In this document: one piece after another, positions 52,942 through 58,049 of the stretch
Position numbering within the stretch: position 1 is the first letter of the stretch
Layout of the letters: each line of letters opens with the position of its first letter
Origin: Bacteroidota bacterium
Lineage (GTDB): Bacteria; Bacteroidota; Bacteroidia; Bacteroidales; P3
Length of the DNA stretch: 64,000 bases
Assembly (NCBI GenBank): GCA_017860275.1
Contig: JAFNAQ010000003.1
Span: 62,001 to 126,000, forward strand
Direction: 5' to 3'
The notes under the pieces: model-generated
Database searches by the model: none
What the model was told of the DNA's origin: nothing
What the model saw: the letters and a program-made list of their open reading frames with translations, nothing else
Position numbers and translations under genes: made by a program

Positions 52942-53192
52942 ATTCCCATTCTTTTTTCAAAGGGACTGCAAAATTAGAAACATTTTTTGAAACAACCAAA
53001 TTTTTTAAAAGAAATATCCTTTTTTAATCGGTTGAAACAAATTTCAAAGAGCAGTTACTTTTTTCAAAAGCGATTGCAAAGGTATAAACATTATTTATTT
53101 CTACCTAATTTTTCAATCGAAAAATACCGATTTATTTACACAAAAACACTACATAATTATTAATGAATAAATTAAGGAAATTAGCTTCATAA

Positions 53193-53939
53193 TCATTCTT
53201 CAATCTGATGACAAAATTTTATTTCTTTTAGTTCAACTTCTATCTTTCTATTATCTCTTTTCTCTAATATCAAGTAGCCAAATTCATTCACATCAAGAAT
53301 TCTTGCCCATATATATTCATTTTTATAATAGTATTTTGCCCAGACATTATAGTATAAGAGATTTAATTTATACTTATCGTTTAGCTCTTCAGCTTTTCCT
53401 TCAATAAGCATAATTTCTCTGTGTCTTATGCAATCCAATAACTCAATCAAACAATCATTTATAATAAAATCTAAATTTGTTTCTATTTTAAGAGAGGTTG
53501 GATTTGGTGCATATTTAAAAACTATCTGATTTATATTCAGCCCTATCCCACAGATAGCGTTAGTATACTCCATTCCGCAAACCTTATTTTGAATCAATAT
53601 ACCACAGATTTTATTTCCTCCGACGTATATATCATTCGGCCATTTAATATGTACATTTGAAACATATTTACTCAAAAAATCATATACCCCAAGAGAAATC
53701 ACTTGAGTAATTTTGAATTGGTCAATAATCGAAATATAATTTGGTTTAAGTAATATCGAGCAAGTAATATTCTTATCATCCTCGCTCTCCCACCTGTTTT
53801 CTCCTTGTCCCCTCCCTTTCTCTTGAGATTTAGAGGCAATAATTGTCCACTCAGAAAGCTTCTCTGTATCTAAAGAATTAAGATATGACTGAGTTGAATC
53901 TACACACTCCAGCCAGATAATATTATATTTATTTTTCAT
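53193..53939 (-). CDS. birA: Biotin-[acetyl-CoA carboxylase] ligase
   Basis: 248 residues from the ATG at 53939; a longer reading from 53966 would overlap the promoter box. The catalytic domain shows ECVDSTQSYLN, the biotinyl-AMP loop GRGQGENRWES, CSILLKP, IKWPNDIYVGGNKICGILI and GIGLNIN. There is no N-terminal helix-turn-helix domain, so this is a monofunctional ligase and not a repressor. It attaches biotin to carboxylase carrier domains. It is a single gene, divergent from the KAP NTPase gene across the repeat region. Confidence 0.93.
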   Translation of the reverse strand: MKNKYNIIWLECVDSTQSYLNSLDTEKLSEWTIIASKSQEKGRGQGENRWESEDDKNITCSILLKPNYISIIDQFKITQVISLGVYDFLSKYVSNVHIKWPNDIYVGGNKICGILIQNKVCGMEYTNAICGIGLNINQIVFKYAPNPTSLKIETNLDFIINDCLIELLDCIRHREIMLIEGKAEELNDKYKLNLLYYNVWAKYYYKNEYIWARILDVNEFGYLILEKRDNRKIEVELKEIKFCHQIEE

Positions 53940-53963
53940 ATATCCCAATAGGTTGATAAGCTG

Positions 53964-53971
53964 CAAATTTA
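53964..53971 (-). promoter_or_regulatory. Promoter -7 box for birA
   Basis: TAAATTTG on the minus strand, 25 nt before the chosen ATG. It supports the shorter reading of birA. Confidence 0.5.
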
Positions 53972-54120
53972 CAATAATATATATTACCCGAAAAAGAACC
54001 TACCAATATAAAAACAAATCCCCTAACCCAAAATGAAACACCGTAACTCCAAACCCTTTGCTATTAAAAAAACTCAACTGACTTGGTCTATATTTATAGT
54101 TTGAATCGAAATTACCTTTT

Positions 54121-54365
54121 AAGTGGGGCAAGTGGAGGTAAGTGGGGGTAAGTGGGGGTAAAATGCAATTTAAAAGTATTCTTATAAAATATTTTATTCG
54201 CAAATAAAAAAATATCAAAGCAGAAAAAAATTACAAAGGAGCTATAAAATCTCGATTTACCCCCACTTACCTCCACTTACCCCCACTTATTTAATATATA
54301 TTTATTAATATTTGCATTCCTTAATAATGTTGAAATAGATAAAAAAACGACAAAAAACATCAATT
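54121..54365. repeat. Inverted-decamer element, copy A
   Basis: Left arm 54121-54160: four units AAGTGGGGC, AAGTGGAGGT, AAGTGGGGGT, AAGTGGGGGT. Right arm 54258-54288: the inverse, three decamers of the type ACCCCCACTT. The arms can pair over about 30 bp with one or two mismatches. The core between them (about 100 nt) and a tail with TTAATAATGTTGAAATAGAT (54322-54341) are shared with copies B and C. G-runs in the left arm could also form a G-quadruplex. No coding potential is convincing. Confidence 0.85.
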
Positions 54366-54366
54366 T

Positions 54367-54600
54367 GGTAGAGGCAAGTAGAGGCAAGTAGAGGTAAAAA
54401 TGCATTTTAAAAACTCTCTTATAAAATATAATTCTCAAATATTTTTTTCGAAGTAGAAATAAAAAAATTGCAATAGAACTTATAAATCTCAATTTACCCT
54501 CTACTTGCCTCTACTTGCCTCTACTTTTTTAGTAATAGTTCAAGTAAATTAAATGTAATTAATAATATCGAAAGAAAAAAATAAGAACAAAAATCCACCA
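54367..54600. repeat. Inverted-decamer element, copy B
   Basis: Left arm (54368-54397): GTAGAGGCAA twice, then GTAGAGGTAA. Right arm (54493-54525): the inverse, complementary over about 29 bp with a single extra base. The core begins AAAATGCATTTTAAAAACTC and ends TTATAAATCTCAATTTACC, close to copy A. The tail is TTAATAATATCGAAAGAAAA. The decamer differs from that of copy A, yet both arms have changed together. Confidence 0.85.
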
Positions 54601-54680
54601 AAAAAACATAAAAATCCAGCCCAAAATCACCAATTTTGACCAAAATAAGCGATTTTTAGAGCAAAAAATAATACCAAAAT

Positions 54681-54764
54681 AGAATAAGATTCCACAAAAA
54701 TAGAATCTTATTCTATTTTTCTAGAACAAGGATCTATTTTTTTAGAATAAGGAGATAGAATAGG
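54681..54764. repeat. Palindromic 21-bp array 5 (word AGAATCTTATTCT)
   Basis: Units start at 54681 (AGAATAAGATTC), 54702 (AGAATCTTATTCT), 54723 (AGAACAAGGATCT) and 54744 (AGAATAAGGAGAT): exactly 21 bp apart, with ATTTTT between words. The frame AGAAT-nnn-ATTCTATTTTT is shared with array 4, 15 kb away. It abuts the left arm of element copy C. Confidence 0.85.
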
Positions 54765-54992
54765 GTTAAGGTAGGTTAAGGTTAAAAATGAAAATAAAAA
54801 CTCTTTTAAAAACTATTATCACACAAATAAATATTTTTTTAATGAGGAAAATAAAAAAAACGTAATAGACCTTTAAAATCTAAATTTTGCCTTAACCTAC
54901 CTTAACCCACCTTAACCCATTTAATAGTATATAAGAGATATTAGCGACACTTAACAATATTGCAAGAAGAAACAAGAACAAAAAAAGCAGAA
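54761..54992. repeat. Inverted-decamer element, copy C
   Basis: Left arm (54763-54784): GGGTTAAGGTAGGTTAAGGT. Right arm (54887-54918): three inverse decamers (CCTTAACCTA, CCTTAACCCA, CCTTAACCC). About 20 bp pair perfectly. The core (TTAAAAATG, ACTCTTTTAAAA, TTTAAAATCTAAATTTTG) and tail (TTAACAATATTGCAAGAAGA, 54950-54969) match copies A and B. It ends about 110 nt before the KAP NTPase ATG. Confidence 0.82.
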
Positions 54993-55100
54993 AAATTAAA
55001 TACATAATTATAAAGGGGAGGATTATATTAATTATATAATCAATATCTAAATTATTTTTAATATCTTTGATTTTTAATTACAAAGCATCAACGATACTAA

Positions 55101-58049
55101 ATGAAAACAAAAAATATAGAACAATTGATTAACACTTCGTTATTATACATAAAAAGCCATATTCTTCTAATTGCAATATCAATATTAATTATTTTCTCAT
55201 GGTTCGTCTTTGAACCATTTTGGCTGGACTTAATAAATAAATTATTAGTTGTCCCTATAATATCAAAGCTGACTGACAAATCTTCTTTCTGGCTATTTAT
55301 TTTTGCTTTTTCTCTAATAACTATTTATTATCTTGCTGTTTATAAATACGAGAAAAGATTTTTGAAAAGTAGATTTATTATTTTCATTGCTGCATCTGTG
55401 CTCTACTCAATTTGCTTATCAAGCAATTATTGGATTTTCAACAGTTTGAATGGTTCAATATGTCTTTCTTACGCTAATATCATTTATTACCCATTGATTT
55501 GTGAAGTATTTATTTATATAATAAGATATAAAAAATCAAAAATAGATGCTAACGCAGAAAATGAAACTTCAACAAAGCTAATCTATGAAGATATTTGCAC
55601 AGAAGAATCCGATGACACGTATAACAGAAAAGAGTATATTAAATCTATTACTAATGTTATAGCAAATAATTTTTTTGATAGAGGTAGTTTTGCTATAGGT
55701 ATTAATGGCTGTTGGGGGAATGGTAAAAGTAGTTTCGTGTATAAAATAATGGATGAAATTAATAATAAAGCTAATAACGAATGTTTAATAATTGAATTTA
55801 AGCCATGGTATTGTAAAAACTCTAACGATATTATAGAAGAATTCTTTAGTATCTATAGAGAAAAGATATCTGTTCATATCCCTTGCTTATCCTCGGAAAT
55901 AAAAAAATATAAAAATTCCTTACTGAATATTGCAAGTTCTAAACTAGGCTTTAATCTTGCAGATATTTCCCCATTTTTTCACCAAAGCAACATACAGGGA
56001 CAATACGACGAAATATCAAAAATACTAAAAGGGACAAAATTAAATGTACTAATAGTCATAGACGATTTAGATAGACTTGATGGCGTTGAAATAATAGAAG
56101 TATTAAAACTAATAAGAAATAGTGCTAATTTCCCTTATACTCAGTTTATTGTAGCTTATGATAAAGAATATATAAAAAATACTTTATCCGACAATAATAT
56201 TGCAAAGCCTGAAAAATACTTGGAAAAAATATTCAATTTAGAAATAATCCTACCAAAATTTCATGAGAGAATTATTTGCGAGGAATTATTTCAATTATTA
56301 AAGGAGAATATCAAATTATCCAATAACAAAGAAATGTCAGATGAAGAATTGGAAAGTTTGGTTTATACGAGCATAGACACTTATATAGATAAAGAAGATA
56401 AATATTATCTTATACCAAAGATATTGGAAACAAAAAGAGATGTAATTCGCTTTACCAATTCATTCACTTTAAATTTTCAAGCATTTAAAGATAGTAAAAC
56501 TGACATTCATATCAACATCAGAGACTTGTTCTTTATCGAGTTAATAAGATATGGTTACTATAACCTATATGAGATTTTAAGAGACAATCCATTATTGATT
56601 CTTGATTTATATTTTACTCATAAAACATATTCATATAAATGGAAAGATTTCCCAAGTGAAGTAGAAGACAAACTAGATAATCAGGCAGATGAAAATGAAA
56701 AAAATACGCTAACAAGGTTTATCGATGAAGGAAAAATATTTGTTTTCAGATTTTTTATGGAAAAGCTATTCTACAACAATAATTCAGATAATAACATTTC
56801 GCATCTTAGAAATTTTGATAAATATTTTGCATTTCAATTGGATAAAAAATGTATAACCAATCAGGAATTTATTGACATTATTGATAAAGAAAATGCTGTC
56901 GAAAAAATTGAAGAATGGTTCCGTACAAAACATAAGAAAGAAATTGAAGAAAAATTATTTTATTGTCTTACATTGATAAGAAAAAAAGACAATCCAAATG
57001 ACACAAGTTATATATTATCATATAAGATTATATATTCCCTCTATGAAAAATTATTTGAATCAAAAAATCAGGACTTACTTCTGGAAGTACTTAATTCCAT
57101 TGAATCCCATATTAGAAAAATGCTAGTTATAGATATTGATCATTTAATTTGCCTATTAGAATTATGGATGAATATTCTACAAAATAAAAATTTAGAAACA
57201 TTTATAACAGGAATAAAAGACTCGGATATGTTAATGTCTATTTTATTAAAGGGAAATTTAAGAGTCGGACCTACAGACTTAAATTGTTCAATGATTGAAA
57301 AAGCTTTAACGGAGACAAAAGCTCCTATGCAAATATCTGAGATGATAAGCATATTTCTCGAAAACCAGAATAAATCTAATATTTCTAAAGACAAACTTAC
57401 AATTCCAATAAGTGGTTTATATGAAATACAAAAGTCATATCTTAATAAGTACATAAAAAATCCAGATCCTAATATCAGCTCATATAAATTATTTAATTAT
57501 TATGCCTATAATAACCCGAATCAAATAACAGAAATTTTAAAAAACTATAAAGAGTATATTTTAACTGAACGAAATGATTATCTAAACCATTTATTCAATA
57601 AAATCGTATCATCTGACCCTGAATGGTTTGTAATTAATATTGAACCGTTTTATTCCCAATTTTTTAATATACCAGAAGAGCTGGATACATTTTTATCTAG
57701 CAATATATCAAATGAAAATAGCAATAATATTCGGGCAAGAAACTTTTGGGAGATATTTAAAAATAATGACTTTAAAGAAATCACTTTCAAAAATCAAGGG
57801 ACATATGAAGATATGGTCAAAAATAATTTTAATTACGAAAGAAAAAAACTAGATGAGCTACTAGATATTCAAAATAGATTGAATAGGTTTGAGTCAATAT
57901 CCATTGGTGGTGGTTATTTGAATTATATAAAGACAGGAATAGAGGAAATTGAAACTAGCCTCGAAAGTAATAATTTATATATTCGACTCAGAGGGGATAT
58001 AATAGAACAAATAAAAAACCTAAAAATAAAAATTGATTCTAGGAGTTGA
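55101..58049 (+). CDS. KAP family P-loop NTPase, membrane-anchored
   Basis: 982 residues. Up to four membrane helices lie in residues 12-142. The KAP domain follows with Walker A GINGCWGNGKSS (200-211), the strand ECLIIEFKPWYCK, Walker B VLIVIDDLDRL (316-326), and FIVAYDKEYI. The C-terminal 500 residues are helical and unassigned. KAP NTPases include PifA, the F-plasmid phage-exclusion protein, and many lie in defence islands, but no family member's chemistry is settled. It is the only accessory-looking gene in a housekeeping stretch, flanked by birA and prfA. A defence role is inference. Confidence 0.85.
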   Translation: MKTKNIEQLINTSLLYIKSHILLIAISILIIFSWFVFEPFWLDLINKLLVVPIISKLTDKSSFWLFIFAFSLITIYYLAVYKYEKRFLKSRFIIFIAASVLYSICLSSNYWIFNSLNGSICLSYANIIYYPLICEVFIYIIRYKKSKIDANAENETSTKLIYEDICTEESDDTYNRKEYIKSITNVIANNFFDRGSFAIGINGCWGNGKSSFVYKIMDEINNKANNECLIIEFKPWYCKNSNDIIEEFFSIYREKISVHIPCLSSEIKKYKNSLLNIASSKLGFNLADISPFFHQSNIQGQYDEISKILKGTKLNVLIVIDDLDRLDGVEIIEVLKLIRNSANFPYTQFIVAYDKEYIKNTLSDNNIAKPEKYLEKIFNLEIILPKFHERIICEELFQLLKENIKLSNNKEMSDEELESLVYTSIDTYIDKEDKYYLIPKILETKRDVIRFTNSFTLNFQAFKDSKTDIHINIRDLFFIELIRYGYYNLYEILRDNPLLILDLYFTHKTYSYKWKDFPSEVEDKLDNQADENEKNTLTRFIDEGKIFVFRFFMEKLFYNNNSDNNISHLRNFDKYFAFQLDKKCITNQEFIDIIDKENAVEKIEEWFRTKHKKEIEEKLFYCLTLIRKKDNPNDTSYILSYKIIYSLYEKLFESKNQDLLLEVLNSIESHIRKMLVIDIDHLICLLELWMNILQNKNLETFITGIKDSDMLMSILLKGNLRVGPTDLNCSMIEKALTETKAPMQISEMISIFLENQNKSNISKDKLTIPISGLYEIQKSYLNKYIKNPDPNISSYKLFNYYAYNNPNQITEILKNYKEYILTERNDYLNHLFNKIVSSDPEWFVINIEPFYSQFFNIPEELDTFLSSNISNENSNNIRARNFWEIFKNNDFKEITFKNQGTYEDMVKNNFNYERKKLDELLDIQNRLNRFESISIGGGYLNYIKTGIEEIETSLESNNLYIRLRGDIIEQIKNLKIKIDSRS

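Follow-up and report, generated by a model that had tools for sequence, protein, structure and literature searches.

Iteron-flanked, AT-rich elements beside a KAP NTPase gene as probable replication origins of Bacteroidales VapE islands

The window analysed here, a whole stretch of 64,000 nucleotides from a Bacteroidota genome, contains three tandem elements (A, B and C) in which an AT-rich core lies between two inverted arms of short repeated units. We consider it probable, at roughly 0.8, that these elements are iteron-type replication origins laid out on the SaPI/PICI plan and served by the VapE proteins of Bacteroidales, which would bind and melt them and so replicate and mobilise the DNA that carries them. 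This reading starts from the anatomy of the elements, their location 3' of many VapE genes, the family and fold of the protein encoded there, the defence cargo and the dispersal of copies, and it is supported by the agreement with SaPIs and PICIs in anatomy, position and protein family. In the proposed mechanism, the initiator would be a BT4734-type VapE that combines a PrimPol-like domain with a VapE/VirE AAA+ helicase and a winged helix at its C-terminus. It would bind the iterons in the two inverted arms, presumably as a pair of opposed hexamers, and melt the AT-rich core, so that replication starts on a small mobile island that often carries a defence system. The two arms would change together because both must fit the one C-terminal domain of one initiator. 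For the trio of the window, the neighbouring initiator gene would have been lost or never present. A, B and C would then be orphan origins, each of its own specificity, next to a PifA-like KAP NTPase, and would have been left behind by non-autonomous derivatives of VapE islands or would serve them. The BT4734/VapE module, often found near an HU-like gene, could then be understood as an integrated replicon with its own origin, often carrying defence.

Anatomy of the elements and pairing of their arms

Table 1. Features of the window, and cargo genes downstream of copies of the element on other contigs
Feature	Position	Strand	Description
Biotin-ligase gene	53193-53966	-	BPL_LplA_LipB; left neighbour of the window elements
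Element A (origin-like)	54121-54290	.	~160-170 bp class; core 19% GC, arms 55%
A, left iterons	54121-54159		AAGTGGGGC, AAGTGGAGGT, AAGTGGGGGT x2
A, right inverted iterons	54257-54289		beyond the AT-rich core
Element B (origin-like)	54366-54526	.	AT-rich core between iteron arms
B, left iterons	54368-54397		GTAGAGGCAA x2, GTAGAGGTAA
B, right inverted iterons	54494-54524
Tail of B	54525-54753	+	A/T-rich spacer
Tail of B, hairpin	54676-54692/54703-54719		followed by a T-run; terminator-like
Tail of B, repeats	54712-54753		two 21-nt repeats
Element C (origin-like)	54762-54920	.	AT-rich core between iteron arms
C, left iterons	54764-54783		GGTTAAGGTA, GGTTAAGGTT
C, right inverted iterons	54889-54919
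KAP-family P-loop NTPase gene (cargo)	55101-58049	+	best PADLOC match PifA, E 5.7e-43
Cargo, C53			type IIG enzyme and TIR-TPR
Cargo, C44			EcoRV-type enzyme and D12 methylase
Cargo, C85			GmrSD_N, HEPN, cytosine methylase, NgoPII enzyme
Cargo, C60			HD-CE with HATPase
Cargo, C36			type I methylase and specificity genes, SMODS nucleotidyltransferase
Cargo, G002			type I R-M
Cargo, G004_C13			type I methylase and specificity genes with GmrSD
Cargo, G004_C19			HIT and HNH proteins
Cargo, G006			cytosine methylase with HATPase, Z1 (MzaC), DUF4420
Cargo, G008 (C28)			type IIG enzyme, resolvase, RhuM
Cargo, G112_C487			Eco57I methylase and BsuBI/PstI enzyme

The initial annotation described a conserved core with differing decamer arms in three copies, the right arm being the inverse complement of the left, and both descriptions held at the coordinates of Table 1. 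The left arms are G-rich with two to four units and the right arms are C-rich with three, the decamer unit being AAGTGGRGGT in A (four left, three right), GTAGAGGCAA in B (three on each side) and GGTTAAGGTA in C (two left, three right). Complementarity between the arms is 96% over 27 nt in A (54125-54151/54257-54283), 81% over 53 nt in B (54368-54420/54472-54524) and 95% over 20 nt in C (54763-54782/54899-54918). The cores have 17-19% GC against 38-55% in the arms, and identity over whole elements is 71% between A and B and 69% between B and C.

A strict quartet was defined as a 6-mer with at least two G/C that occurs twice at a spacing of 7-12 nt, with its reverse complement occurring twice at like spacing 40-220 nt away from the first pair. 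All 35 strict quartets of the 64-kb window fall within 54121-54917, and 0 of 200 dinucleotide shuffles of 54061-55010 reached that number. Across 209,635 bp of this genome, in 12 sequences of which most were picked for containing an element, every strict quartet was inside an element, and a degenerate element (L019) and a half element (L147) gave none. The test is imperfectly specific, since an unrelated quartet was formed by TTGAGA inverted iterated repeats that lie outside the element, upstream of the Bacteroides finegoldii VapE locus (L152 654-747).

That both arms had changed together, as first proposed, was borne out by seven copies of the same genome aligned in register, in which 97.3% of the cells of 17 arm pairs were paired, 9 of the 17 pairs had changed on both sides and the covariation score was reached by 0 of 500 shuffles. 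The further proposal that pairing itself is selected, as RNA hairpin or DNA cruciform, found no support. Sliding the partner by 1-3 columns lowered pairing to 35-60%; sliding it by ten columns, which is one decamer, left 95.3% of cells paired and 8 pairs changed on both sides, and because pairing persists one decamer out of register, it is the unit that is conserved on both sides and not one pairing register. The hairpin reading was rejected on this register test. Unit numbers are also unequal between sides and between copies (three left and two right in the C85 element), and an Rfam search of 53000-56000 returned no family at gathering score, the best matches being microRNA models far below theirs, so the RNA-family reading was dropped with these sub-threshold matches. 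It is therefore highly improbable that the elements are structured RNAs or cruciforms with the arms as stems, despite the double changes, an RNAalifold consensus energy of -24.9 kcal/mol and one register of A in which its two variant GGAGG units face each other (in another they do not); the loop would be A/T-rich and longer than 90 nt, and the position is 3' of a replication initiator. Given the opposition of the variant units in A, local copying between arms may also have occurred. Arm covariation of this kind can imitate selected base pairing and is a trap for covariation-based RNA discovery.

Iteron turnover seems to be visible in the sequences of two further copies. The outermost left unit of the C44 element is AAGTGGGGA and its inner units are AAGTGATAGT, while at C53 a B-like start, TTTGGTAGA, stands ahead of A-type units.

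Association with VapE genes and the predicted initiator

In the genome of the window, an element lies 3' of the VapE gene on contigs C44, C85 and C60; the gene is complete on C60, cut by contig ends on C44 and C85, and the VapE gene of C48 is broken. Strict inverted iterons were found within 600 nt 3' of VapE at 9 of 20 loci with downstream sequence (C44, C85, C95, C48, G004_C13, G004_C19, G010_C34, G010_C4 and G112_C487), the observed count being reached by 0 of 200 shuffles at each, and degenerate iterons were recognised by eye at three more (C60, G002 and L060). An element thus stands immediately 3' of the initiator gene at 12 of the 20 loci, and the window elements have no VapE gene beside them. 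Neither the strict test nor the eye found an element at the other eight, which are G003 in the genus and seven of the eight loci outside it. The VapE-linked iterons vary widely (for example GGGTGGAGT, AGGGGGAAG and ACGGGACA), and the strand order seen in A, B and C is reversed at G112_C487, where the C-rich strand leads.

The search was extended to 465 phage/plasmid records with VapE-family matches (380 + 85), all below 60% identity. By the strict test, two of the eight records examined were positive next to VapE, with iterons 25 nt after the VapE stop in Parabacteroides distasonis NZ_OY725823 and about 340 nt after it in B. finegoldii NZ_OY725958, and six were negative. Among 17 order-level loci the two from our own genome were positive again, as were 2 of the 15 others (L162 and L168), with the remaining 13 negative by the strict test; these 15 include one locus already in the 20-locus set (L164) and one with no ORF at threshold (L172). 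The record and order-level scans covered whole loci, whereas the 20-locus test covered the 600 nt 3' of VapE.

The VapE of C60 has 723 aa with the domains BT4734-like_N and VapE, and its N-terminus matches PrimPol_Db with an E of 3.5e-25, below that model's cut-off. Under E 0.1, the sole PDB match of the VapE profile was 7pds ('Similar to D. nodosus vapE', E 2.4e-18, helicase part). An AlphaFold2 model of the protein (pLDDT 64.9, helicase core low) gave PriRep1 with dsDNA (7pds) as its best structure match (Z 11.6, rmsd 6.2, 320 residues, model range 284-665) and the primase RepB' as its second (Z 8.7). PriRep1, which we take to come from a staphylococcal island, has a VapE-type helicase and a C-terminal domain and is the best match of the Bacteroidales VapE in both sequence and structure, although identity over the structural alignment (model range 284-665) is 13%. 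Modelled alone, the C-terminal 112 residues reached a pLDDT of 78 with a winged-helix order of secondary structure; the isolated model matched winged-helix proteins weakly, at E > 0.04 only, so the fold call is drawn from the secondary-structure order and the PriRep1 alignment. From sequence and model, the initiator of the related copies appears to be a primase-helicase with a C-terminal domain predicted to bind DNA.

Two iteron sets flank an AT-rich region 3' of the initiator in SaPIs and PICIs (PMC6092414), the C-terminal domain of their Rep recognises the iterons (PMC6092414, PMC7581432), and the origin, as here, is directly 3' of the primase/helicase initiator gene (PMC6092414, PMC7581432). 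The elements described here differ in their Bacteroidales host, in their decamer or nonamer iterons of many types, in the occurrence of orphan copies and of tandem arrays that combine two or three specificities, and in a cargo that is often defence. The SCCmec helicase Cch2 likewise binds short direct repeats just 3' of its own gene via its C-terminal domain, but its origin has three iterons and its inverted repeats are dispensable for binding (PMC7581432), and the oriV of SGI1, an integrative island, is an iteron origin directly downstream of rep (PMC7433901). The BT4734/BF3469 and VirE/PF05272 proteins are of the same family as the VapE studied here. VirE/PF05272 domains have been predicted to be helicases of mobile-element replication (PMC5862659), and the accessible part of that paper describes no origin for BT4734/BF3469 or VirE proteins. 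No iteron origins of the VapE family in Bacteroidales were recognised in the literature searched, which included few subscription papers.

Comparison of VapE proteins over 60-column windows of their alignment is suggestive of coevolution between the iterons and the C-terminal domain, in a few pairs that are partly discordant. G002 and L060, with similar iterons, are 100% identical over the last two alignment windows and 67-73% in the first two. G002 and G004C13, with different iterons (GTAGGAGTA and GTGAGGGAG), are 80-90% identical in seven of the eight middle windows (61% in the other) and 56/46% in the last two, and the VapEs of C44 and C85, also with different iterons, are identical just before the C-terminal region and then fall to 68/56%. 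Other comparisons do not fit a simple rule: C-terminal identity is 56/67% for G002 and G004C19, whose iterons are nearly identical, and 75/51% for G004C19 and G004C13, whose iterons differ. The first 60 columns also vary as much as the C-terminal end. Contigs C44 and C85 both end within one identical VapE stretch of about 100 nt (L013 1-100; L011 end) and then diverge, and since both ends fall inside the identical part, this suggests that at least two VapE copies share an identical body and carry different C-terminal/origin modules. Since copies within a genome can differ in little besides their C-terminal domain and iterons, the module could serve as a test set for the coevolution of initiator specificity and origin iterons.

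Several other features were noticed around the VapE genes. An HU-related gene, often divergent, is near VapE at many of the loci examined (L110 2768-3202, L111 1958-2392, L109 10119-10565, L019 9814-10251, L107 3891-4322 and L152 1365-1907). At the more distant VapE locus of G003 (L106 2948-4819), where no element is recognisable, AAA_21 and RloB genes run convergent to VapE. A Y1-transposase (RAYT-like) gene with GTAGAGACGCGATTTATCGCGTCTC palindromes is located beside the C60 island (L019 2810-3610), and the same palindrome occurs near VapE on C95 (L107 4328-4416). L060 is contig JAQUYR010000059, filed under a Bacilli MAG; its VapE is 95% identical to that of a Bacteroidales genome and the contig is likely misbinned.

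Dispersed copies and their neighbouring genes

The feature extends beyond the window, with further copies on other contigs. Searched by DNA similarity, the same genome gave copies on C85, C53 (two elements, of types C and A) and C44, and a sequence-only profile added C60:13549, C60:103374, C29, C36, C1, C60:188931 and a half copy on C20; of the profile matches with E > 0.001, only those already known from VapE loci were followed. A pattern scan of genome contigs gave six loci, because its patterns lay within a short region. By DNA similarity, copies were found in 1 of 11 genomes of the genus, the one under study, and a scan of viral contigs with one VapE as the query gave no match. Element B is 89% identical to the C85 element and shares its iteron type, while its left flank is unrelated to that of C85 (25% identity; random pairs average 36%). 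Element C is 78% identical to the first C53 copy (C53a) and 75% to C60:103374, with weaker flanks, and its iteron type is close to that of the VapE-linked element on C60.

Several copies look, from their sequences, like VapE loci that have lost VapE, because gene ends or C-terminal remnants of VapE lie beside them: about the last 30 nt of the gene are retained before the element on C29, C1 and C36, and in genus relatives the remnants amount to 26 residues (G004 C23) and about 107 (G006 C62). No coding remnant of VapE was detected beside the window elements or at C53. An empty site was sought in the prfA neighbourhoods of the genus (11 genomes); the upstream gene differs where readable, and none was found.

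The dispersal of many copies also raises the question of whether these are MITE-like, non-autonomous transposable elements with the arms as transposase ends. The solo copies of C1 and C29 share 90% identity along 568 bp while their flanks are unrelated, and a serine resolvase gene, possibly a mobility gene, lies downstream of the element and the type IIG enzyme at G008:C28 (L148 11951-12544). However, the unit that copies share starts about 30 nt ahead of the VapE stop and reaches beyond the right arm, and its ends are therefore not formed by the arms; neither terminal inverted repeats nor target duplications were recognised for the ~568-bp unit of C1/C29, and the arms differ while the core is kept. 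We consider the transposon reading very unlikely; the replication-origin reading would itself allow for a mobile unit with an origin on it. Among the part of the neighbouring ORFs that was searched, there was no tyrosine integrase.

In the window, the gene next after the KAP NTPase gene is a release-factor gene. At many other copies, genes for restriction-modification or other defence functions follow the element (Table 1). Five copies (C1, C29, C60:13549, C60:103374 and G004_C23) have no evident defence gene; five of their neighbours were searched, of which two had no match and the others gave a WapI-like immunity match, an FAD enzyme and a glycosidase. The copy of G004_C24 is followed by a run of N. 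Since elements precede cargo genes in the same orientation, with a terminator-like hairpin after the element, they might be operators at which VapE or its HU-like partner binds the iterons to control cargo transcription and not replication. This is very unlikely, as solo elements exist without defence cargo, an AT-rich core between opposed iteron sets is the anatomy of an origin, and the initiator family is a primase-helicase.

Orphan elements and the repeats that follow them

If the elements are origins, those without an initiator gene could be relics, sites used in trans or decoys. We put forward tentatively, as a doubtful possibility, that orphans are kept for action in trans. With two or three stacked origins that differ in their iterons, a defence cassette could be amplified and mobilised by several different VapEs, resident or incoming; alternatively, orphans would act as decoys, titrating and handcuffing the initiators of VapE islands that invade and so excluding these islands. 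Action in trans is favoured by the iteron type that B shares with the C85 VapE locus and the closeness of C to the C60 type, both in the same genome, and by the retention of both arms in orphans whose VapE is gone; it is disfavoured by the half element of C20, as at least one such copy, and by the fact that relics of recent loss would look alike. Exclusion that depends on iterons in trans has a precedent in the lambda inhibition phenotype (PMC3349717). Stacked orphan origins of differing specificity thus raise the testable possibility that origins are retained in chromosomes because they permit mobilisation in trans or exclusion, and decoy orphans, if true, would be incompatibility used as immunity, beside classical defence genes.

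Downstream of the arms, the similarity of the tail of B to C85 and to C44 stops at one common point, 54752. Arrays of units of about 21 nt (TAGAATAAGG and CTAACTCCTTATTCTATTTTA types), with an inverted copy and a T-run, are found between element and cargo at several loci (window 54676-54753, L009, L010, L008, L110, L111, L108 and L148) and are terminator-like. A different array of 21-22-nt units lies behind the cargo of C53 (L012 14640-14752).
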